Origin: an uncultured Nitrospina sp. | GTDB taxonomy: Bacteria; Nitrospinota; Nitrospinia; Nitrospinales; VA-1 | Reading direction: 5' to 3' | Length of the DNA stretch: 54,307 nt | NCBI GenBank assembly: GCA_913045445.1 | Contig: CAJWQP010000008.1 | Span: 1-54,307, forward strand | In this document: positions 1 to 43,121 of the stretch, piece by piece | Position numbering within the stretch: position 1 is the first letter of the stretch | Layout: each line of letters begins with the position of its first letter | The notes under the pieces: model-generated | What the model was told of the DNA's origin: nothing | Databases searched by the model: none | What the model saw: only the letters and a program-made list of their open reading frames with translations | Translations under genes and position numbers: made by a program

Positions 1-788
1 CCATGAAAATCCCGGCTACCGGTGATGATGAGTCCGAATTGCCGCGAGAGGTCTTTATAATATTCCACTTTTCCTGTCCGCTCGTGGTAAGGGTAAACAC
101 ATTCCATTCCCAAAAGTCCGAACGATTTTAATTCTTCAACCATACCGGGGACATCATCGTAGGTATATCCTTTGGCAGGATTGTACAGGGAGTAAGATCG
201 TTCTCCTGGATGCGCCAATACCGGAACGCCATTGCATTCGCGAATCAGCCGGATGGCATCTGCCATTTCCAGGTTCTTGCGCTCGACATTGTATCTCACA
301 AGATACCGGTCGAAAGCATCCCGGCTGTTCGCAACGATTCCCAATCGGGCCATCTCTTTGGCCAGATGGGGTCGCGCCAGAACACCCTCGGCGGCGCGAC
401 GCACATTCTCATACTCAACGGTTCCCCGAAATTTTTCCGGTATCACTTCGTTGATGCGCGTTATCAATTCACGCATGCGCTTTTCCCGTTTGAAAGCCAT
501 CTCCGTCACTTCCCGACACAGTTCTTCCGACAGGAAATCCGCCGACTCAAAATAAGCCAGCAGATGGAGATTGAATCCTCTATAGCGCACCGTGATTTCG
601 ATTCCGGGAAAAGCAAAAATCCCCTCTGCCTCAGCCGCTGGTATAAACTCATCGATACCTCCAAAGGTATCGTGATCAGTCAGGCAAAGAGTGGAAACTC
701 CGTTATTTTTTGCGATATCAACCAGTTTTGTCGGTGAAAATTCTCCATCTGAAAATGTGGAATGCATATGAATCTCAAATTTTTCCAT
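1..788 (-). CDS. PHP-domain metal-dependent phosphoesterase (partial, runs off the left edge)
   Basis: Minus-strand reading frame from ATG at 788 translates MEKFEIHMHSTFSDGEFSPTKLVDIAKNNGVSTLCLTDHDTFGG..., with PHP motifs HMHSTFSDG and TDHD; no stop before the window edge, so it is absent from the ORF track. Confidence 0.85.
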   Translation of the reverse strand, partial: MEKFEIHMHSTFSDGEFSPTKLVDIAKNNGVSTLCLTDHDTFGGIDEFIPAAEAEGIFAFPGIEITVRYRGFNLHLLAYFESADFLSEELCREVTEMAFKREKRMRELITRINEVIPEKFRGTVEYENVRRAAEGVLARPHLAKEMARLGIVANSRDAFDRYLVRYNVERKNLEMADAIRLIRECNGVPVLAHPGERSYSLYNPAKGYTYDDVPGMVEELKSFGLLGMECVYPYHERTGKVEYYKDLSRQFGLIITGSRDFH

Positions 789-913
789 GGGCCTATAATA
801 ACCTTATTTAACGGCTTTGGAAAGCCGGGGAGAGGAATAGCCGCTTTAGCGACCTGGAAATTGTCCTTCAAAGCTTGATTGCCTTGTTAAAATTTTTCGG
901 ATACTCTTGAGAC

Positions 914-2242
914 ATGATCAGACATCGACTCCTCATGGCCTGGGTTGCGGCCTTTATATTTTTAGGAATCGCCAGTGATGCACGCTCGCTTGCCGAAGTG
1001 CCTCCGCGTGAGTTCCTCATTGTTTATACAGGGAACACTCTGGGTGAACTTAAACCTTGCGGCTGTGCGAAAGAAGAGGATCAAGGCGGATTCGAGCGAC
1101 GAATGACTTATTTCAAGCAAGTCGGCTTGAACTCGAAAAACACATTATTTGTCGACACGGGAGACAGCTTCAAAGAACCTTCTCGGCAAGGGAAAATCAA
1201 GGCCCGCTATCTCATGCAGGCCATGTCCCTGTTGAAATATGACGCTGTGATTCCAGGAGACAAGGACCTCGTCTATGGCGAATCATTTCTCAAAAAGGGC
1301 GCATCAATCCCCTGGCTGTTGAGCAACGCCCGTTTGAGCAAAGTGAGTCCACCTGAAACGAGGATCAAAAAACTGGAAAACGGGCTCGCTATAGCCATGC
1401 TGGCTGTGGTCGATCCTGAGATGTATTATGCCGCCGAGCACAGTGGAGGACGCATTACAGACCCCAAAAAATCGGCCAAAAGGTTGATCGATAAAATTAA
1501 CGGGTCGGAGCGCCCTGACGTAATCGTTTTGCTCACCCACATGAAACGGGAAAAAGCGCTTTCCTTGTTGGCGCTGGATGGAGTAGACGTGGTGATCAAC
1601 GGTCATATCGAAAAAGATACGGATGTCATCGACATGACTCCGGTAAAGCAGGATGGAAAAATATTCATTCAGCCAGGACCGAGAGGTCAGAAGATGGGGG
1701 AGTTGACCGTTCGGATTGATGAGGCCGGTAACAAATCGTTTGACCAGCGTATGGTACGTCTGGATTCCAATATAAAATTCGATCCTGAAATGATAAAATG
1801 GTATGAAGATTACAACCGGGAAGTGGAGGACCTGTTCTTCACATCGCTGGACGCACGAAAAGACCAGCACGGGAAAGAAAAAGTCTATGCGTCAGAGCAG
1901 ACGTGCCTGACCTGCCACCCCGGGAAACATGCGGTATGGAGCCAGTCGCGTCACGGTCATGCTTACGAAACCCTCAACCGGGTCAACAAGGCGTTTGATC
2001 CGGAGTGCCTGATATGCCATGTTACCGGATTCAACCATGCCGGGGGATTCATCAGTGAGGTGGATACGCCGGAACTGAAGAATGTGCAGTGTGAAGTGTG
2101 CCACGGTCCGGGTCTGAAACATGCAAAAGATCCGCAAACCGGATTGGGTCGCAATGCCCGACAGGCCTGCAAACTCTGCCATGTAAAAAATCATAGCCCG
2201 AATTTTAATTACTCAAATTATTGGCCCAAAATAAAACATTGA
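914..2242 (+). CDS. 5'-nucleotidase/UshA-like metallophosphatase fused to a C-terminal tetraheme cytochrome c554-like domain
   Basis: Signal peptide; YTGNTLGELKPCGCAKEEDQGGFERR motif; metallophosphatase-like VDTGDSF and LLTHM; four C-terminal CxxCH motifs (CLTCH, CLICH, CEVCH, CKLCH). Confidence 0.85.
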   Translation: MIRHRLLMAWVAAFIFLGIASDARSLAEVPPREFLIVYTGNTLGELKPCGCAKEEDQGGFERRMTYFKQVGLNSKNTLFVDTGDSFKEPSRQGKIKARYLMQAMSLLKYDAVIPGDKDLVYGESFLKKGASIPWLLSNARLSKVSPPETRIKKLENGLAIAMLAVVDPEMYYAAEHSGGRITDPKKSAKRLIDKINGSERPDVIVLLTHMKREKALSLLALDGVDVVINGHIEKDTDVIDMTPVKQDGKIFIQPGPRGQKMGELTVRIDEAGNKSFDQRMVRLDSNIKFDPEMIKWYEDYNREVEDLFFTSLDARKDQHGKEKVYASEQTCLTCHPGKHAVWSQSRHGHAYETLNRVNKAFDPECLICHVTGFNHAGGFISEVDTPELKNVQCEVCHGPGLKHAKDPQTGLGRNARQACKLCHVKNHSPNFNYSNYWPKIKH

Positions 2243-2270
2243 TCCGATTGGAAACTACAAGGAGATTTTC

Positions 2271-2930
2271 ATGAAAAACAGTAATAACCCTCTGCTAAAA
2301 AGCTTGCAAAAAGTTTTACTGGCTCTTCTGCTGGTTGGCTTCATCATCCCGCCGGGCCTGGCTCTAGCTGGAGACAAAATCCGGGGAAAATATAAAGTCA
2401 TCGGTTCCATAGAAAAACTCAAAGGCGCAAAGCAGGTTGAGATGGCAGAATTTTTCAACTACTCCTGCGGTCATTGTTACCGTTTTCTGGAGACATCTAA
2501 AAAACTACGCGACAAGTTCAGGGACAAGCTCTTCCACAAAAAATATCCTATTTACTGGGGACAACAAACTGCCATCCCCGCCAAATCCTATTACATAACC
2601 GATGAGTTGGGGATCGAAGAAAAATTCACCCAGGAGTTGTTCGACACCAACTTCAAACTCCATATCAATATATTTCGGCCCAGAGTGATTCAGCGTCTCT
2701 CACAACATTACAAGATAGAACAAGAAATCAGAGATGGCATGAAATCACCCTCCATCGAAGCTAAGGTTCAGAAATCACTGGCTTTGTTTAAAAAATACGC
2801 AGGTGACGAAACGCCAACGGTTATCCTCAATAATGTGCTGAAAGTAACCCCCAGTATTTCAGGCGGCTCGGTGGAAAAGATGACGGAAAATCTGGAACTT
2901 ATCATTGAAGACATTCTGAGCTATAATTAG
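2271..2930 (+). CDS. DsbA-like thiol:disulfide interchange protein
   Basis: Signal peptide; EFFNYSCGHCYRF (CGHC thioredoxin-fold motif); C-terminal TPTVILNN cis-Pro region. Confidence 0.85.
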   Translation: MKNSNNPLLKSLQKVLLALLLVGFIIPPGLALAGDKIRGKYKVIGSIEKLKGAKQVEMAEFFNYSCGHCYRFLETSKKLRDKFRDKLFHKKYPIYWGQQTAIPAKSYYITDELGIEEKFTQELFDTNFKLHINIFRPRVIQRLSQHYKIEQEIRDGMKSPSIEAKVQKSLALFKKYAGDETPTVILNNVLKVTPSISGGSVEKMTENLELIIEDILSYN

Positions 2931-2956
2931 CGCTCTTTAGTTTCTCCACGGGAATT

Positions 2957-4537
2957 ATGACGAACCCATTCTTATCCAGAAAAACAGCTGCATTGTTGAC
3001 GGCGACTTTGATGGGCTTGCTTCTGCTATTTCCAGCAGGGGACGGAAAGCAGAGCTCTGCCCTGCTGTCCACAGCCGAGGCCGGGTTTTTCAGTAATGAT
3101 CTTGAGCTTTTCGAAGAAGTTGTTGACCTGGTGGGAGATAAATATGTTTATCCCCCCGATTATAAAAAAATGTTCATGGCCTCTGTTGAGGAAATGGTGC
3201 GGACTCTTGATGATGAAAATATCATCATGAGCGACACTCCGGGCGGACAAGCCATATCACGATTCGACTCGTCCATTCGCTATCAGCTCAACTTCAACCG
3301 GGAACACGATCTGGAAGATTTCAAGAAAATATATTACTTCCTGCATGAGGAATCAAAAAACAAACTGAGCAAGGAGGAGCTTGAAACAGCCGCCGTTACG
3401 GGTCTTATGAACTCACTGGATCCCTATTCCCAATACATGGATGCCGAGGTCTTTGGCAAATCGATGCGCGATACGGAAGGAAAGTATGGCGGACTGGGCA
3501 TGGTCATCACCATGAAGGACAACCGTCTCTATGTGGTGAAGACCATGAAAAATTCCCCGGCCGAACGCGCCGGAATTTTACCGGATGATATTTTTGAAAA
3601 AGTCAATGGAGAGGATATCAGCAAAACCCAGATAACAGAACTTGCCGATATGCTGAGAGGCTACCCGGACACAAAAGTCACCATATCCCTGCGCAGGCAG
3701 TCGGACAAGCGGGAGCGTACCTATACGCTGACCCGGAAAATCATCTCTATCGAAACCGTTGAATATGAAACGCTGGAAGATAATATTGGATCGATAAAAA
3801 TCACCAGTTTTTCCAAACAAACCAACGATCAGTTAAAGGAGGCACTCGCAAAGTCCAAAAAGGATAAGGTGAAGGGCTTCATTCTCGACCTGAGGGATAA
3901 TCCTGGCGGCTTACTCGATCAATCGGTAAAAGTCGCCAGTCATTTTCTGTATCGCAACCGACTCATAGTCTATACACAGGGCCGAGAAAGTACCAGCCAT
4001 AACGAATACCGGGCTCAATACAAAAACAGTCTCCATTTCATGCCAGTCATCATCCTGATCAACCAATACAGCGCAAGCGCGGCGGAAATTGTCGCCGGAG
4101 CGTTGAGAGATTCAGGGAAAGCGCTGATCGTAGGGGAAAACTCCTACGGCAAAGGTACCGTTCAAACCATTTTCCGCACCAGTGACGGGTCGGGCCTCCG
4201 CCTGACAACCTCAAAATATTACACACCGTCGGGAACGGATATCACAGAACATGGGATCGTTCCTGAAGTTCGCATCATTAAAGACCACATTCCGGAAGGA
4301 GATTCGCAAGCAGAGAAAAAATCAAAGACCGAGCCTCCTCAATTCGGTTCAGGTTCGCTGATAAAACTTAAAGAGTCCGAGGTTAAAAGTTTCATCCAGA
4401 AAAAACACTACACAAAAGAGAAGTCCGCTGACCCCACCTTTCTGTTTGCAAAAATGCTCATCAAAAATGTTTCGGTGGCGAATAAAAAGAAAACTCTGGA
4501 AAAAGCACGCGAGTTGGCAACCAATATTCATTACTGA
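2957..4537 (+). CDS. S41 family C-terminal processing peptidase (CtpA-like) with PDZ domain
   Basis: PDZ region (GGLGMVITMKDNRLYVVKTMKNSPAERAGI), LDLRDNPGGLL, INQYSASAAEIVAGALRD, GENSYGKGTVQT. Confidence 0.93.
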   Translation: MTNPFLSRKTAALLTATLMGLLLLFPAGDGKQSSALLSTAEAGFFSNDLELFEEVVDLVGDKYVYPPDYKKMFMASVEEMVRTLDDENIIMSDTPGGQAISRFDSSIRYQLNFNREHDLEDFKKIYYFLHEESKNKLSKEELETAAVTGLMNSLDPYSQYMDAEVFGKSMRDTEGKYGGLGMVITMKDNRLYVVKTMKNSPAERAGILPDDIFEKVNGEDISKTQITELADMLRGYPDTKVTISLRRQSDKRERTYTLTRKIISIETVEYETLEDNIGSIKITSFSKQTNDQLKEALAKSKKDKVKGFILDLRDNPGGLLDQSVKVASHFLYRNRLIVYTQGRESTSHNEYRAQYKNSLHFMPVIILINQYSASAAEIVAGALRDSGKALIVGENSYGKGTVQTIFRTSDGSGLRLTTSKYYTPSGTDITEHGIVPEVRIIKDHIPEGDSQAEKKSKTEPPQFGSGSLIKLKESEVKSFIQKKHYTKEKSADPTFLFAKMLIKNVSVANKKKTLEKARELATNIHY

Positions 4538-4557
4538 TTTATTAGAGGACTGCTTCA

Positions 4558-4800
4558 ATGAACATCATCAACATTGATTACGATAACGAGACTCTTCAGA
4601 GTGATTACTTCACCTGGAAGATTGTTGCCAACGATAAAAATAAGTTTCTTCTTCTGCAACGCGAGGACAATGGTCGCTATCACGCCGCCGAAGCCGACGT
4701 TAAGAAAAAACATCTCTGGGAAGTTAAAGAGATATCATTCCGTGGACCCGATGGCGACACCTATTTCTTCGATGAAGAAACCGGCGTTGACAAACTTTGA
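4558..4800 (+). CDS. hypothetical protein, 80 aa
   Basis: ORF 21 bp downstream of the S41 peptidase in the same orientation, with upstream AGAGGA. Confidence 0.55.
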   Translation: MNIINIDYDNETLQSDYFTWKIVANDKNKFLLLQREDNGRYHAAEADVKKKHLWEVKEISFRGPDGDTYFFDEETGVDKL

Positions 4801-4815
4801 ACTATTAAAAACGAA

Positions 4816-5409
4816 TTAAAAAAGTTTGAGGGACTTCAGGTGGGCCAGGGATTTCTTGAGTTCATCCTTGGTTTTGTTGGCGAGAAAGTTGCCTCGCAGA
4901 TCGAGCTTTTTCAGTTTGGGAAAGTTTTTGGTGGCCCCGAAACCCAACGCCCCGGCGTCACGAGTTTCTGTCCAGCCCAGTTGAATTTCTTGCAGATTGG
5001 GAAAGCTGGCAGATTTCGCAAGGGCGAGAGATCCGGCATCACCCAGTATATTATGCCGCAATATCAAAACCTTTAACTTGGACAAAGGCGGCATTTCCGC
5101 AAGCAAACCCGCCCCCACTGCAGTGATTTCGTTGTATCGCAAGTCTATCTTTTCAACTTTTTTCAACACATCACTGGCAATCAGGCGTTTGATACCTTCG
5201 TCTCCTATTTTCTTCCCGGAGAGATTTAAAAATTTTCCGCGCCGTTTTAAACTACCCTTGAATAAGGCATCATAATCAACCGGTCCCTTGTTGAATCCCT
5301 GAGCATAACCCGGTGAGACGGCAGGCCCCATAACAAACGCATTAAGCATAAGCAAAGCGAGCAGAATCAAAGAGGCCCTATTTCTCCCGGACAGGCGATT
5401 AGTCCTCAT
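4816..5409 (-). CDS. exported leucine-rich-repeat protein
   Basis: Likely start MRTNRLSGRNRASLILLALLMLNAFVMG (signal peptide), then LRRs such as LKVLILRHNILGDAG and LKKLDLRGNFL. Confidence 0.75.
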   Translation of the reverse strand: MRTNRLSGRNRASLILLALLMLNAFVMGPAVSPGYAQGFNKGPVDYDALFKGSLKRRGKFLNLSGKKIGDEGIKRLIASDVLKKVEKIDLRYNEITAVGAGLLAEMPPLSKLKVLILRHNILGDAGSLALAKSASFPNLQEIQLGWTETRDAGALGFGATKNFPKLKKLDLRGNFLANKTKDELKKSLAHLKSLKLF

Positions 5410-5986
5410 CGTCATCTCTTCCGCTCTCCCTGGCCCTTGCTTCCAGCTCATCCCAACTGCTGATCTGATCTTCGTCTTCCTCGTAATCATCCTGATAAAT
5501 AAAATCTTTCAAATCATCTACATGCAAATGACAGAGGCGTTTGCCGCACTTGGCTTCTTTGAGCGCTTCGATACCCAGCTTGCGGATGCGGTTGCATGTG
5601 AGGAACAGGTATCTGAGCTTGGATAGAGTTTTAGATTCGGCGATGGCAACAGCCCCTTCATCTTCGACCAGATTTCCGTACAGGTTCAGTTTTTTAAGGT
5701 TCGCCAGGATGGGAGATTCCGCAAGGGCTTTAACACCATCATCACTTATGACGTTGCCATAAAAATCCAGCTCGATCAGTCTCTTGAAATGCTCTGAATT
5801 AGCGATGGCAATTGCACCCTCATCACTTATATTGTTGTTTGCCAGAGTCAAATGGGTGAGCCGTTTCAGCAGTTTGGATTTAGCCAGTGTCACGGCCCCC
5901 TTATCGCCCAAAACCTGATTGCTCAGGTCCAAATGTTTTTTATCTGGAGTTAAAAACTGTTTAATCAAATAGTCTACGCTGGCCAC
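5399..5986 (-). CDS. leucine-rich-repeat protein (RNase-inhibitor-like), acidic C-terminus
   Basis: Repeats LTHLTLANNNISDEGAIAIA, LIELDFYGNVISDDGVKALA, LKKLNLYGNLVEDEGAVAIA. Confidence 0.8.
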   Translation of the reverse strand: MASVDYLIKQFLTPDKKHLDLSNQVLGDKGAVTLAKSKLLKRLTHLTLANNNISDEGAIAIANSEHFKRLIELDFYGNVISDDGVKALAESPILANLKKLNLYGNLVEDEGAVAIAESKTLSKLRYLFLTCNRIRKLGIEALKEAKCGKRLCHLHVDDLKDFIYQDDYEEDEDQISSWDELEARARESGRDDDED

Positions 5987-7454: not shown

Positions 7455-10088
7455 TTATTTCAGGAATTGCGATCCCACTAAAGCAACCTCTTCATCACGT
7501 GATGTCACTTGGCCATTAACCCGTGCGTCCCGCAGGGTTTTTAAAACGTCTTGAAACACCGGACCAGGCTTCATTCCCATTCCGATCAGATCTTCACCGG
7601 TGAGTTCTGTCTTCGCTGACGAACAATACTGATTGAAATAAAGCATCGCATGTTTGTTCACTTGGTCGCTGGAACAAACAGCAAGCAAAAGAATCACCGC
7701 TTCAATCGACAGCTCTGACAAAACATCGTACACTTCGCTGGGCTTGAGCTCGCACCCATCGTTAAACTTATCTTTCGCTTTAACAAAGTGTCCCCTGTCA
7801 AGACGCATTCGGTTCCTGATTTTCATAGGAATGTGAAGACGCTCCATGGCTTTTTCAAACGCGGCCTCTTTCATAGCGATGAACAACGCATGAAAATAAA
7901 CGAACCAAACCTCAGGTTTTTTAGCCATCGGAACCATTTTCGCCCAGGTCAATACACCGTCTATTTTTTCCAGGACCAGCCTGTGAGAATCATCTTCTGT
8001 AATATCTGGAACTATTAAATAAAGTAGAGAAAGCTCCCGCATCCGGTCAATACACTTCATAGGGTCAGATTCCCGCAGGAGAAGCTTTAGCTCATTCATG
8101 AGACGCGTCCCACTCAACTGATTGACCAGATTATTCTTGATCGCGCTCTTCATAAAAGCTCTTGTTTGGCGACCTATACGAAAACCAAACCTCTGCTCGA
8201 ATCGAATGGCGCGAAAAATACGGCACGGATCTTCGATAAAACTCAAATTATGAAGAACACGGATAGAGCCATCTTTTAAATCCATTTCGCCATTAAAATA
8301 ATCAATCAGACAAAATGCTCCCTGCCCGTTTAACTTAACTGCCATACTATTTATTGTGAAATCCCGGCGGAAAAGATCGGACTTGACGGAGCTACGTTCC
8401 ACCTTTGGCAAGGCACCCGGATGCGAATAATATTCCATCCTGGCCGTTGCGACATCTATACGGGACCGATCCTTCAGCAGAACCACTGAGGTGCCAAACT
8501 TATCATGGCTCTTAGTCCGCCCATTAAATTCCTTGGCCAGAGTTTCGGCAAAGGCAATGCCATCGCCCTCCACAACAAGGTCAATATCAAAGTTCTGGAT
8601 GTTGAGTAGTAAATCCCTCACAAACCCGCCTACAACATAAACTTCCACTTTTTCTCGATCGGCGATTTGAGAGATTGAATCCAGCAGAGCCATCACGTCT
8701 ATATGCAACCGCTCTTTCAAGAGACTCTTCACACTTTTCATGGACTCTCTTTTCCCATCAAACAAACGCGGAGTATCAAATCCACTAGAGACCATATCCC
8801 GGTGTAGCACCCTGAGCAAATCTCCCCGGCTGACGATGCCTGCCAGATTTTTTGAAACCGGGTCAATCACCGGAACCAGCTTTTGTTTTTCTTCAATAAT
8901 AATGGGAGCAATCGATTTAAAATAAGCGTCCGGTGTTGTAACCGAAAAATCACTAATCATAAAATCTTTCACCTTTGCATCTTTCATTTTATGGTGGATC
9001 GCTTTTTCAACTATCTGGCGCGTGATCAAACCCACAGGCTTGTTATCTGCCAGGACAGGAAGAGTGTTCAAGTTGAACCGGGTGAGCGTTTTTTCAACAG
9101 ACAAAAGGCTCTCACCCCCGGTGGCCGATTGAACCGGAAAATGCATGATATCGCTAACCCGGTGCAAGGGTTGCAGGCTCGCGTGAAGAAGTTCAAAAAG
9201 TTTTTCTCGAACCTGAACCAGTGTCTGGTTTTTGATACTTACGGAAGCCGCACAACTGTGCCCACCACCACCCAGATGTTTCGCCACTTCAGCGACATTG
9301 ACTTCGTCACAGCGACTTCGGGCAATTACATAAACCCCTTGATCCAGTCTCACCAAGGCAAACAAAGCCTTTAAATTTTCCAGGTCCATCACCTGAGAGA
9401 CCACATATGACACATCCTCCACATAAAAATCCTCAGAAGCGGTGGTCATCGCCACCTCCACTCCATTGATATTATGTGATTCAATATTCGAGACCAACTG
9501 GTTGAGAATTTCAATCTGTTGCGAATTCAGACGAGGTTGCACGAAACGCGCTACAGTTTCCATATTCGCGCCGGAGGCAACAAGTTTTCCTGCCGCTGAA
9601 AAGTCTTCCGGTGTTGTCGACACGGAAAACAACGATTGTGTGTCCTGAAATATCCCAAGAACCATGAGTGTGCTCTCCTCCGGCGTCAGAGAAATATTTT
9701 TCCCTTCAAGAATTTCGCACAGGATAGTCGCAGAGGCCCCTCTTTTTTTGATAACACACTTGGCCCCCGCAAGAGCATCCGCGACCTCCTCAGGATGATG
9801 GTCATAGATATGGACCTCTAAATTTGGATTATCCAGCAGTGATTGAAAAACACCGATTCGCCCGGGGTCATGCGTATCCACAATGATAAGCTGACTGACC
9901 GCATCGAGATCTATATCCTTAATACGGGAAAATCCAGGGAATGGGGTGGACTGCTTTAAAAATTCATTCACGCCTTTTTCAGTTGAGCCGGAAAAAACCA
10001 GCCTCGCAGAAGGATAAAGCTTGCGCGCGGCCACCATCGAGGCAAGACAATCAAAGTCCGCATTTAAATGAGTAGTAATGACCTGCAT
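7455..10088 (-). CDS. DHH phosphoesterase - CBS - tRNA nucleotidyltransferase/poly(A) polymerase family fusion protein
   Basis: N-terminal DHH motifs (HLNADFDCLASMVAA, IVDTHDPGRIG, IYDHHPE, GGGGHSCAAS), central CBS pair, C-terminal VYVVGGFVRDLLLNIQNFDIDLVVEGDG and RRDFTINSMAVKL. Confidence 0.9.
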   Translation of the reverse strand: MQVITTHLNADFDCLASMVAARKLYPSARLVFSGSTEKGVNEFLKQSTPFPGFSRIKDIDLDAVSQLIIVDTHDPGRIGVFQSLLDNPNLEVHIYDHHPEEVADALAGAKCVIKKRGASATILCEILEGKNISLTPEESTLMVLGIFQDTQSLFSVSTTPEDFSAAGKLVASGANMETVARFVQPRLNSQQIEILNQLVSNIESHNINGVEVAMTTASEDFYVEDVSYVVSQVMDLENLKALFALVRLDQGVYVIARSRCDEVNVAEVAKHLGGGGHSCAASVSIKNQTLVQVREKLFELLHASLQPLHRVSDIMHFPVQSATGGESLLSVEKTLTRFNLNTLPVLADNKPVGLITRQIVEKAIHHKMKDAKVKDFMISDFSVTTPDAYFKSIAPIIIEEKQKLVPVIDPVSKNLAGIVSRGDLLRVLHRDMVSSGFDTPRLFDGKRESMKSVKSLLKERLHIDVMALLDSISQIADREKVEVYVVGGFVRDLLLNIQNFDIDLVVEGDGIAFAETLAKEFNGRTKSHDKFGTSVVLLKDRSRIDVATARMEYYSHPGALPKVERSSVKSDLFRRDFTINSMAVKLNGQGAFCLIDYFNGEMDLKDGSIRVLHNLSFIEDPCRIFRAIRFEQRFGFRIGRQTRAFMKSAIKNNLVNQLSGTRLMNELKLLLRESDPMKCIDRMRELSLLYLIVPDITEDDSHRLVLEKIDGVLTWAKMVPMAKKPEVWFVYFHALFIAMKEAAFEKAMERLHIPMKIRNRMRLDRGHFVKAKDKFNDGCELKPSEVYDVLSELSIEAVILLLAVCSSDQVNKHAMLYFNQYCSSAKTELTGEDLIGMGMKPGPVFQDVLKTLRDARVNGQVTSRDEEVALVGSQFLK

Positions 10089-39849: not shown

Positions 39850-40623
39850 ATGTCAACCACCGATCCATTTGAATCACCCACGCATGGGATAGAACCCGAT
39901 GAGCAAACTCTGAAGAAGAAAAAACTGTGGAGGAACCTGTTCCTTTTTAACCTCTGCATCACCCTTTTGCTGATCGGTATTTTCTGGCTTCCCGTTAAAC
40001 TGGTACAAATGGAAAAGTTTGCCAGTTCACCCAGCGTAAACCTTACCAAGAAAGGTGTCTCCAACGCATTCAACAGTATCCCGGACCAACCCGTTGAGAA
40101 TGTGGTGGCATCAGACCTTCTTGAAACCAAATTGACCGTCATTAACGCATCGTCTGAAGACAACTGGGTTTATTTCGATTTCTCTAGAGGAGAAGTCGTT
40201 GACATTCACGACAAATCGTCTATCGAATGGGACCTGGCCTTTCGCCGGAGCAAAGTCATCTCTAATGGGGGTGCGACCAACAAATTTGGCAGGGCGGGAT
40301 TGATCAATCTGGGTTCGCTGGATTTCGATCAGGTGGCAGAAGTTCCTCTCGAAAATTATGTTCAGGATAAGGCCACGCGCACCGAAACGGAAAACCCCAT
40401 TCTCTTGAAGTGGTACAAATACAACTACCTGACACACAAACTATCGGCCAAACCCAATACCTATGCAGTAAGAACTGCCAACAGCAAATTTGTCAAAGTC
40501 AAATTTCTTGACTTCTATTGTAGCAACAAGGAAACAGGGTGCATCAAAATGCAGTATGTGTACCAGGATAATGGCTCGAATAAACTGACCAAATCCGCCT
40601 CAGGCATTACTCCGCCCGCCTAA
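39850..40623 (+). CDS. HmuY-like protein with N-terminal TM anchor
   Basis: NWVYFDFSRGEVVDIHDKSSIEWDLAFRRSKVISNGGATNKFGRAGLI resembles the HmuY pattern (W-YF..., WDiaFrr..., NGG). Confidence 0.65.
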   Translation: MSTTDPFESPTHGIEPDEQTLKKKKLWRNLFLFNLCITLLLIGIFWLPVKLVQMEKFASSPSVNLTKKGVSNAFNSIPDQPVENVVASDLLETKLTVINASSEDNWVYFDFSRGEVVDIHDKSSIEWDLAFRRSKVISNGGATNKFGRAGLINLGSLDFDQVAEVPLENYVQDKATRTETENPILLKWYKYNYLTHKLSAKPNTYAVRTANSKFVKVKFLDFYCSNKETGCIKMQYVYQDNGSNKLTKSASGITPPA

Positions 40624-40788: not shown

Positions 40789-41373
40789 ATGGCAACATTG
40801 AAAAAAATTCTCTTCGGTCAATCTGCCGGGGAAAGCCTAACCTCTCTGGTGGAGGAGATGCAGAAAAAGTACAACCCTAAAAAAGGTCGGCGATTCAATC
40901 ATGCCAACATCACCTATGAAGTCAGTCGTCCCGGTGTGGTTGATGATAATATCCAGTTTGAGATAAGCTCAAAAATCCCTCAGGATGAACTCAAAGGGGA
41001 TCATGACATGAAAAGTTACTTCAAGGAAATCAAGAAGCTCGTTTCGAAAGAAAAACATAAGCCTGTCTCAGTGGAAATGGAAAATATCGTGTTGGACTCC
41101 AGAAAGGATTCTGAAAAAGAGAGGGACTATGTGAAACTCCTTTACAGCTATCCCCTTGATGATCTTTACGATGACAAAGATGTAACGGCTAAAATTGATC
41201 AGATGGGCCAGGAAAACATCAAGGAGTCTACACAAAAAATAAAAGGTTCACTAACACCGCAAGGGAGCCTGGTTCTTCAGATGGTCAAGGAAACCATTCA
41301 GAACAACGCCCGTGAAAATATCGAGCAACTTATGAGTGCCAACAAGAAGGTGAAGGCGGAAATGAGGGGTTAG
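40789..41373 (+). CDS. hypothetical protein, 194 aa
   Basis: Good SD (GGAGGAAG); soluble, highly charged; no recognised motif. Confidence 0.7.
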   Translation: MATLKKILFGQSAGESLTSLVEEMQKKYNPKKGRRFNHANITYEVSRPGVVDDNIQFEISSKIPQDELKGDHDMKSYFKEIKKLVSKEKHKPVSVEMENIVLDSRKDSEKERDYVKLLYSYPLDDLYDDKDVTAKIDQMGQENIKESTQKIKGSLTPQGSLVLQMVKETIQNNARENIEQLMSANKKVKAEMRG

Positions 41374-41379
41374 ACGTTC

Positions 41380-41556
41380 ATGAATCCGTTTGCCTATTAC
41401 CTGGGGCGTTCTCTGCAATTACTGGGGCTCGCTACAATAACCCTGGTGGTCCTGCTTTTTTTTGGTCAGTGGAAAATGGAACCCCTTCTTTACCTGACAA
41501 TCGCGGGGGCAGTCGAGTTTTATGGTGGAACCTGGCTCCTGAATAGAAAACAATAA
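41380..41556 (+). CDS. small membrane protein, 58 aa
   Basis: Translated by eye: MNPFAYYLGRSLQLLGLATITLVVLLFFGQWKMEPLLYLTIAGAVEFYGGTWLLNRKQ; starts 6 bp after the previous stop; two hydrophobic segments. Confidence 0.7.
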   Translation: MNPFAYYLGRSLQLLGLATITLVVLLFFGQWKMEPLLYLTIAGAVEFYGGTWLLNRKQ

Positions 41557-41655
41557 CCAGAAGTACCGAACTCACTCTCAGGCGACACCTGAACACGAGG
41601 GTTCTCCCATTTTTTTCTCTCTCTTTCCATTAGCTGGTTACGAAGTAATCTACTC

Positions 41656-42366
41656 ATGAAAGAATTACTGGCAAAACCGGGTTTTCTAGCTTCTTCCGGG
41701 ACTTTCGGTGCCGACCTCAGCTATCTGCTCGCTGTGGTCTTTACCATGATGTTTCTATACGCCTGGAAACTGGCTAAACAAGGACGCGGCACCGGGCACC
41801 ACAAGCTGATCTTCGCATCCATGGTTTCAATGCTGGTCTACTTTGTGGGTTACTACTATGCCCGGCAGTTGGGCGTATTGGCTCTGGAAGGAAAAGAAGG
41901 TTTCGGCGGTCCTCAGGAAACCTACGACAATGTTTTCATACCCATTCTGGCCGCACACCTGATTCTGGTTTGTCTGGGCCTCATCCTGGCAATTTATATG
42001 ATTTTTCAAGGATTCCGCGCTTGCGATAAAGTCAACGGGGATTACCGATTGCAAAGCAGGGAACTGAAGGTCAACCCAAAAACCTTCAAATCAGTCATGA
42101 TGACCCTGGCGGGCCTGTGGCTGGTAAATCAGCTTATTCTGACCTTTGTGCGTCATAAATCATTTGCCGCAAGCCTGGCCTGGGCGCTCATTTTCGGTGT
42201 CATCGGGCTGGTGATCTACCTGGAAAGAATCATCGAAAAAGCCCTGCCAGATGGTGCCCGGCGGCACCGACTACTAGGACGAACCACGATGGTCATTTTT
42301 GCCCTGATTCTGGCAACGAGCACTCTCACCTACCTGATGCTGTACGTGATTTACCCCACAGCATGA
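41656..42366 (+). CDS. DUF420-like integral membrane protein
   Basis: Multi-TM; LAKQGRGTGHHKLIFASMVSMLVYFVGYYYARQLG and related helix pattern. Confidence 0.6.
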   Translation: MKELLAKPGFLASSGTFGADLSYLLAVVFTMMFLYAWKLAKQGRGTGHHKLIFASMVSMLVYFVGYYYARQLGVLALEGKEGFGGPQETYDNVFIPILAAHLILVCLGLILAIYMIFQGFRACDKVNGDYRLQSRELKVNPKTFKSVMMTLAGLWLVNQLILTFVRHKSFAASLAWALIFGVIGLVIYLERIIEKALPDGARRHRLLGRTTMVIFALILATSTLTYLMLYVIYPTA

Positions 42367-42498
42367 CAGATAGAGGCTCTTTCCCTGATGAAGCAGTGAA
42401 AACCTTTAAAAACAAGGGCTACGGAAGAATTTAAATTATCTAAACTTTAAGGGTTTTCTCCTTGACACCCTTCAAAATCCTATGGTAAAGTTCCTCGG

Positions 42499-42606
42499 TT
42501 AAATGATCTCAAAATACATGAGCAACAAATACAGGGCAGTGAGCCCGTTGACTCCGAGACCAATAAACACAATAGTATCAAAAATTTTTCCATTTTTACT
42601 GGGCAT
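42499..42606 (-). CDS. membrane microprotein, 35 aa
   Basis: Minus strand MPSKNGKIFDTIVFIGLGVNGLTALYLLLMYFEII, upstream AAGGA SD; one TM helix. Confidence 0.5.
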   Translation of the reverse strand: MPSKNGKIFDTIVFIGLGVNGLTALYLLLMYFEII

Positions 42607-42729
42607 GCTGTTTCCTTGGGGAAATTGAGTTCAAGTCGAATATCGAAACTGAAATTAACATTCAGAATTTATAACTGTCAAGAATAAACTGTATCAATCT
42701 TTCACACTTTTATTTCAGGGGCGCCTTCA

Positions 42730-42834
42730 ATGGATATAGAAAAAATTAAGGAAAAAGCCGGTCCATGGGTCTACATGGGAACTGTTGTATTTTGTTTATG
42801 GTTCTTTTACTGGTTCGCCTCGGTCTGGCGATAA
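42730..42834 (+). CDS. membrane microprotein, 34 aa
   Basis: MDIEKIKEKAGPWVYMGTVVFCLWFFYWFASVWR; one TM helix, compact placement before the next microprotein. Confidence 0.6.
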   Translation: MDIEKIKEKAGPWVYMGTVVFCLWFFYWFASVWR

Positions 42835-42892
42835 ACGAAGACGGCTCAAATCAACTCGATTTGATAAATTCTAAAGGGGGAATTTTTTAGCA

Positions 42893-43063
42893 ATGGAAGA
42901 ACAAAAACAATTCATAACCGGCAAATCCATCACATGGTTCATCATTGCGTTCATCGTAATGGGTTTCTACTACTTCTTCATCAACTGGGGCCTCATGAAG
43001 GTTCAGGGCCTGGATTTCTTCTATCTATGGTCTTCCGGTGGTGGTGGCGGTGGTGGTCACTAG
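42893..43063 (+). CDS. membrane microprotein, 56 aa, with GGGGGGGH C-terminus
   Basis: MEEQKQFITGKSITWFIIAFIVMGFYYFFINWGLMKVQGLDFFYLWSSGGGGGGGH; SD AAAGGGGG; followed by a strong terminator. Confidence 0.68.
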   Translation: MEEQKQFITGKSITWFIIAFIVMGFYYFFINWGLMKVQGLDFFYLWSSGGGGGGGH

Positions 43064-43087
43064 TCACTGACGAAATAGTTTTCATAA

Positions 43088-43121
43088 AAATGGCAAGCTC
43101 TCGTAGCTTGCCATTTTTTTT
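43088..43121 (+). terminator. rho-independent terminator after the microprotein cluster
   Basis: AATGGCAAGCT-CTCGT-AGCTTGCCATT followed by a T run (near-perfect ~10-11 bp stem). Confidence 0.88.

Follow-up and report, generated by a model that had tools for sequence, protein, structure and literature searches.

In the 54,307-nucleotide window analysed here, a stretch of DNA from an uncultured Nitrospina sp., we found a two-gene unit whose 34-aa and 56-aa reading frames, m34 and m56, are always adjacent and under strong purifying selection. This pair probably encodes small subunits, comparable to CydX and CydH, of a bd-like oxidase complex whose large subunit would be encoded on another contig of the host genome. 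Nitrospinota are the chief known marine nitrite oxidizers; how they transfer electrons to oxygen is unsettled, and most are without a canonical heme-copper oxidase. Two conserved candidate subunits, together with a CtaM-family factor lacking its usual client, would offer handles for purifying the bd-like complex, and the candidate subunits could help to recognise it in cryo-EM maps. The work also adds real genes of fewer than 60 aa, of a kind that gene callers can miss.

The host genome (G000, Nitrospinota) comprises 2.3 Mb in 151 contigs and is 95.7% complete. Searches covered a library of 77 genomes of the Nitrospinota group in nine families, labelled f1–f9: the four closest families, f1–f4, hold 64 genomes, f5, f6 and f9 hold nine, and f7 and f8 hold four. 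The locus itself was compared with 61 further loci, those named being mostly Nitrospinaceae or Nitrospina MAGs. Several of the 61 are one genome entered twice, so the locus counts given below are counts of loci and not of independent species.

The conserved neighbourhood opens with the gene of an HmuY-domain protein (39850–40623, plus strand; PF14064, 6.2e-21), which lies upstream of orf194 in 59 loci. orf194 (40789–41373, plus strand) encodes a conserved protein of 194 aa in which no domain was recognised (dN/dS 0.16) and is directly 5' of the 58-aa frame m58 (41380–41556, plus strand). Then come a DUF420 gene (41656–42366, plus strand), the 35-aa frame m35r (42499–42606, minus strand), which reads away from the pair, and the pair itself, with m34 at 42730–42834 and m56 at 42893–43063, both on the plus strand. 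Gene order and spacing are constant in up to 61 loci, with median gaps of 10 nt between orf194 and m58, 73 nt between m58 and DUF420, 137 nt between DUF420 and m35r, 117 nt between m35r and m34, and 69 nt between m34 and m56. Elsewhere in the window, positions 914–2242 appear by eye to encode a phosphoesterase/5'-nucleotidase-type domain with a CxxCH multiheme region after it, and positions 7455–10088 an 877-aa ORF with an apparent fusion of DHH-type phosphoesterase, CBS and tRNA nucleotidyltransferase-like parts.

All four microprotein genes are real and strongly conserved. The original prediction had claimed four missed reading frames of 58, 35, 34 and 56 aa, and their coordinates and lengths are borne out: the frames are intact and their dN/dS is low. 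Full-length, stop-free homologues (E<1e-3) were found in 58 of the 61 loci for m58, 55 for m35r, 50 for m34 and 44 for m56, with any match at all to m56 in 49. As decoys, 13 other ORFs of the same interval, picked by hand from the ORF list and not a random sample, were full-length and open in only 0–9 of the 61 loci. The ORF antisense to m35r had matches in 55 loci and was open in none. Substitutions in the microprotein frames are concentrated at codon position 3, and the median dN/dS is 0.204 for m58, 0.064 for m35r, 0.069 for m34 and 0.143 for m56, compared with 0.137 for DUF420. The codon-level check proposed with the prediction thus returned purifying selection on all four frames, at 0.06–0.20. 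Small size, hydrophobicity and a single helix would also suit hydrophobic small toxins, of type I or similar, or spurious ORFs, yet these genes are single-copy, vertically conserved across the phylum and fixed in order, and the decoys beside them are not conserved. Chance ORFs are ruled out by the decay of the decoys together with dN/dS, and we regard the toxin or spurious reading as extremely improbable.

Some secondary details of the prediction need correcting. Each protein does have a membrane-spanning stretch, but of the one or two helices proposed, two are plausible only for the 58-aa protein, and the 56-aa protein has one. Good Shine-Dalgarno sequences, claimed for most of the frames, do convince in some orthologues, but those at the 58-aa and 34-aa ORFs of the window are modest. 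The intrinsic terminator 3' of m56 (43086–43118, plus strand; 14-bp stem, 5-nt loop, U tract) is real by folding (−19.7 kcal/mol, z −6.7), but the 35-aa gene points away from the pair and stands outside the plus-strand run that ends there.

Within f1–f4, strong matches were found for m58 in 60 of the 64 genomes, m35r in 55 (E<1e-20), m34 in 54 (E<1e-20) and m56 in 53 (E<1e-9), most of the genomes without a match being broken or incomplete assemblies. Past f4, m58, m35r and the pair go separate ways. Since the distributions differ and m35r is divergent, the four microproteins do not form one operon, and a single operon for all of them was rejected. By distribution, m35r and m58 are separate predicted membrane microproteins, apart from the pair. 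m58 also occurs in f5 and in most of f9, where its homologues sit between rimO and a cutA-like gene (gene names by eye). It is a family of its own, plausibly with two helices, and this deep location lends no support to the suggestion that it is an accessory subunit of the CcoQ/CydX type.

The same suggestion fares no better for the single-helix protein m35r, whose clear orthologues end at order level: none was found beyond f1–f4 among the 77 genomes. m35r has its own conserved predicted promoter, divergent from the pair (42652–42681, minus strand), with TTGACA, an 18-nt spacer and an extended −10 (TGTTAATTT). Of 40 distinct intergenic regions, 39 have TTGACAG without a mismatch and 35 have ATGnTAnnnT downstream of it. 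This minus-strand element, conserved throughout f1–f4, may overlap a promoter of the pair as well. Short single-helix proteins resembling m35r, with the motif FHxGVxxNVxxVxWLYLxxFxVI, adjoin a leucine-rich-repeat gene in six other loci (L113:4269–4358, L114:9302–9391, L115:8944–9030, L116:9638–9727, L117:9188–9274 and L118:9591–9677), and similar short proteins were seen in L135 and L136. The proteins of these eight loci share a motif, but their neighbours are unrelated and the homology to m35r is weak; they were set aside.

The pair reaches further. Each of the nine f5, f6 and f9 genomes carries a diverged m34 homologue next to one of m56 (m56 at E<=1e-4), and these deep forms are adjacent ORFs with good ribosome-binding sites and 24–37% identity. 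A SAR324 record (L065) gave no interpretable locus. K9, G11, L23, F26 and W28 are invariant in the m34 alignment, as are K11, F16, L34 and the QGL triplet (38–40) in the m56 alignment (A6). m56 carries a conserved GLMKxQGL segment and, in most forms, a C-terminal His, while deep forms of m34 have a His-rich tail of the HGVAxHH type. Both proteins, at ~30–60 aa, show one hydrophobic peak, taken as a single transmembrane helix, and their topology is probably N-in/C-out. Pfam and NCBIfam searches returned no family for m34 and none credible for m56, and searching PDB sequences with the microprotein profiles gave chance-level matches only.

The clearest indication of a partner comes from one f5 genome, G001, where homologues of m34 (L110, 8728–8847) and m56 (L110, 9023–9130) come first and the next gene on the same strand, 81 nt past the latter, encodes an NxrC-like diheme cytochrome c that has an ethylbenzene-dehydrogenase (EB_dh) domain. 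The operon continues with a 197-aa monoheme cytochrome, a 277-aa membrane monoheme cytochrome, a second diheme EB_dh protein and finally CydA (PF01654, 2.7e-25). This linkage of the pair to CydA was observed in G001 only; f9, f6 and f1–f4 encode the pair away from cydA. A cluster of CydA, two cytochromes and a diheme protein is conserved elsewhere in the phylum without the pair, including on host contig C38 (L126), where CydA matches PF01654 at 4.2e-20. The prediction was right that no large oxidase subunit lies in the window, and the candidate partner is this CydA of C38. Host contig C41 (L127:4767–8189) encodes a second, diverged bd-like protein (705 aa) that scores below the curated PF01654 cut-off; downstream of it is a diheme cytochrome c. 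At the family level, f7 and f8 (four genomes) lack both CydA and the pair, and each of the remaining seven families has both; this co-occurrence, with absences judged from draft assemblies in a small sample of nine families, rests on two CydA-negative ones. Because there are only these two, which are perhaps reduced or differently respiring genomes, other respiratory genes may match the profile of the pair. The idea of a CcoQ/CydX-type respiratory subunit, which gained no support for m58 and m35r, is supported for the pair by the G001 operon and the family-level match with CydA.

The original prediction had also named nitrite oxidoreductase (NXR) as a possible partner. In Nitrospinia these genes all coexist with NXR, and the bd-like cluster holds NxrC-like proteins and has been proposed as a docking point for NXR (PMC6606698), so the pair could encode NXR subunits or membrane anchors. 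However, the host pair does not adjoin nxr genes (L158), and NxrA gave no match in G001, which is 96% complete, or in six f9 genomes, seven draft assemblies that all have both the pair and CydA. The pair therefore follows CydA and not NXR, with the qualification that the test is imperfect, since NxrA likewise escaped detection in many Nitrospinia assemblies that are fragmented. L130 and TIGR03479 were poor probes for NXR. In L130 (positions 1–5525, G071), genes of a molybdopterin reductase-like operon (alpha, beta, chaperone, cytochrome c and gamma-like) lie shortly upstream of a bd-like oxidase cluster. We consider an NXR partnership improbable. Somewhat better placed, though still unlikely, is the idea that m34 and m56 are assembly or stability factors of another respiratory complex (a bc complex, complex I or the bd-like protein of C41) and that their position in G001 is incidental. 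That linkage was seen in one genome, and elsewhere the pair has other company: a tetraheme c554-type cytochrome and HmuY in f6, and DUF420 and HmuY in Nitrospinia. Against this, the pair in G001 begins an uninterrupted same-strand operon that ends in CydA, and its presence and absence match those of CydA. In the f6 genome G003 the HmuY and tetraheme c554-type cytochrome genes (L111:7555–8927) are divergent from the pair, so f6 resembles Nitrospinia in having HmuY close to the pair.

The neighbouring gene had been called DUF420-like, correctly: it scores 56 bits against PF04238, where the gathering cut-off is 30.5 (6.6e-15). By its sequence, the 236-aa product belongs to the CtaM family of oxidase assembly proteins. 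Orthologues occur in 62 of the 77 genomes and share four near-invariant histidines (H48, H49, H101 and H204). AlphaFold modelled the protein with moderate confidence (pLDDT 74) as having six main helices; a PDB fold search returned nothing at E<=0.001. The aa3/caa3 oxidases depend on CtaM, which has been reported solely from genomes with aa3-type oxidases (PMC4958251, PMC9145763). No heme-copper oxidase was found in the host, where no PF00115 match rose above the cut-off, which agrees with the reported presence of cbb3-type oxidases in just a few Nitrospinia (PMC10839748). An aa3-type oxidase in the same genome is a reported correlate of CtaM and not a sequence criterion. The sole PF00115 match in the host, a 309-aa ORF below the cut-off, was rejected as a heme-copper partner.

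The microproteins and DUF420 might instead form one functional unit that matures a heme-copper-like oxidase by inserting copper or heme. Such a unit would fit the fixed gene order in Nitrospinia, the need for DUF420/CtaM in aa3/caa3 assembly in Staphylococcus aureus and Bacillus subtilis (PMC4958251, PMC9145763), and the copper-export role proposed for it (PMC13344008). It is nevertheless very unlikely: the pair occurs in f9 and in genome G002, where DUF420 was not detected, m58 is separate from the pair in f5 and f9, m35r is confined to f1–f4, and the host has no detected heme-copper oxidase to mature. Beyond f4, DUF420 turned up in f5 and in a single f6 genome, in each case on a different contig from the pair. 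As G000 has no heme-copper oxidase that we could find, a bd-like client for DUF420 is possible, and this CtaM-family assembly factor may here perhaps serve the bd-like enzyme, a weaker proposal than that for the pair.

Returning to the preferred reading of small subunits of the bd-like complex, m34 and m56 would pack against the helices of CydA or of a membrane c-type cytochrome, where they might stabilise cofactors or heme sites, shape oxygen access, or aid docking with the c-heme subunits. A fuller and decidedly tentative version, which we think doubtful as a whole, is that the pair represents two previously unrecognised, phylum-wide subunits of a cytochrome c-linked bd-like oxidase. Their ancestral periplasmic C-termini (HGVAxHH and the terminal His) would then help to form a metal or heme site or to dock a c-type cytochrome, and DUF420 would have been co-opted for maturing the bd-like enzyme from an earlier role in assembling heme-copper oxidases.

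Among known systems, the DUF420 protein compares most directly with CtaM/YozB, and it passes the Pfam cut-off for that family. It differs in its length with six main predicted helices, whereas CtaM/YozB have four or five transmembrane segments, and in that no heme-copper oxidase was detected in its genome. For the pair, the small accessory subunits of heme-copper oxidases (CcoQ/CcoH-type and subunit IIa) are alike in size, single helix and accessory role, but the match to subunit IIa is at chance level (E 1.8) and the host has no such oxidase that we found.

CydX and CydS are single-helix subunits of cytochrome bd, and the gene for CydH, an orphan, co-occurs with its oxidase (PMC8951039). Like CydX/CydS/AppX and CydH (CydY), single-helix proteins of ~30–40 aa associated with a CydA-type oxidase, the pair shows genetic association with such an oxidase, with one operon example. 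In Nitrospinia the pair is encoded away from the oxidase operon, as the orphan gene cydH is in E. coli. In contrast to those subunits, the pair consists of two adjacent small proteins, and Pfam, NCBIfam and PDB chains gave no homology to CydX, CydH, CcoQ or a solved small subunit; our claim is therefore that the pair works like CydX/CydH, not that it is one of them. Unlike canonical cytochrome bd, the putative partner is bd-like and encoded with c-type cytochromes in place of CydB. A cluster of bd-like oxidase, alternative NxrC and cytochrome c is conserved in Nitrospina, Nitrospira and anammox bacteria, its role being undetermined (PMC6606698, PMC8026999, PMC10839748), and PMC10839748 gives the subunit make-up of Nitrospinota bd-like oxidases as unconfirmed. 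Descriptions of the OR-N CydAA'-family cluster in these three papers name no microprotein subunits. We matched the C38-type cluster to that of the literature by composition, assuming the OR-N subtype from PMC10839748 and PMC6606698. CydA, membrane cytochromes c and a diheme NxrC-like set are found together on host contig C38 and, in G001, together with the pair.
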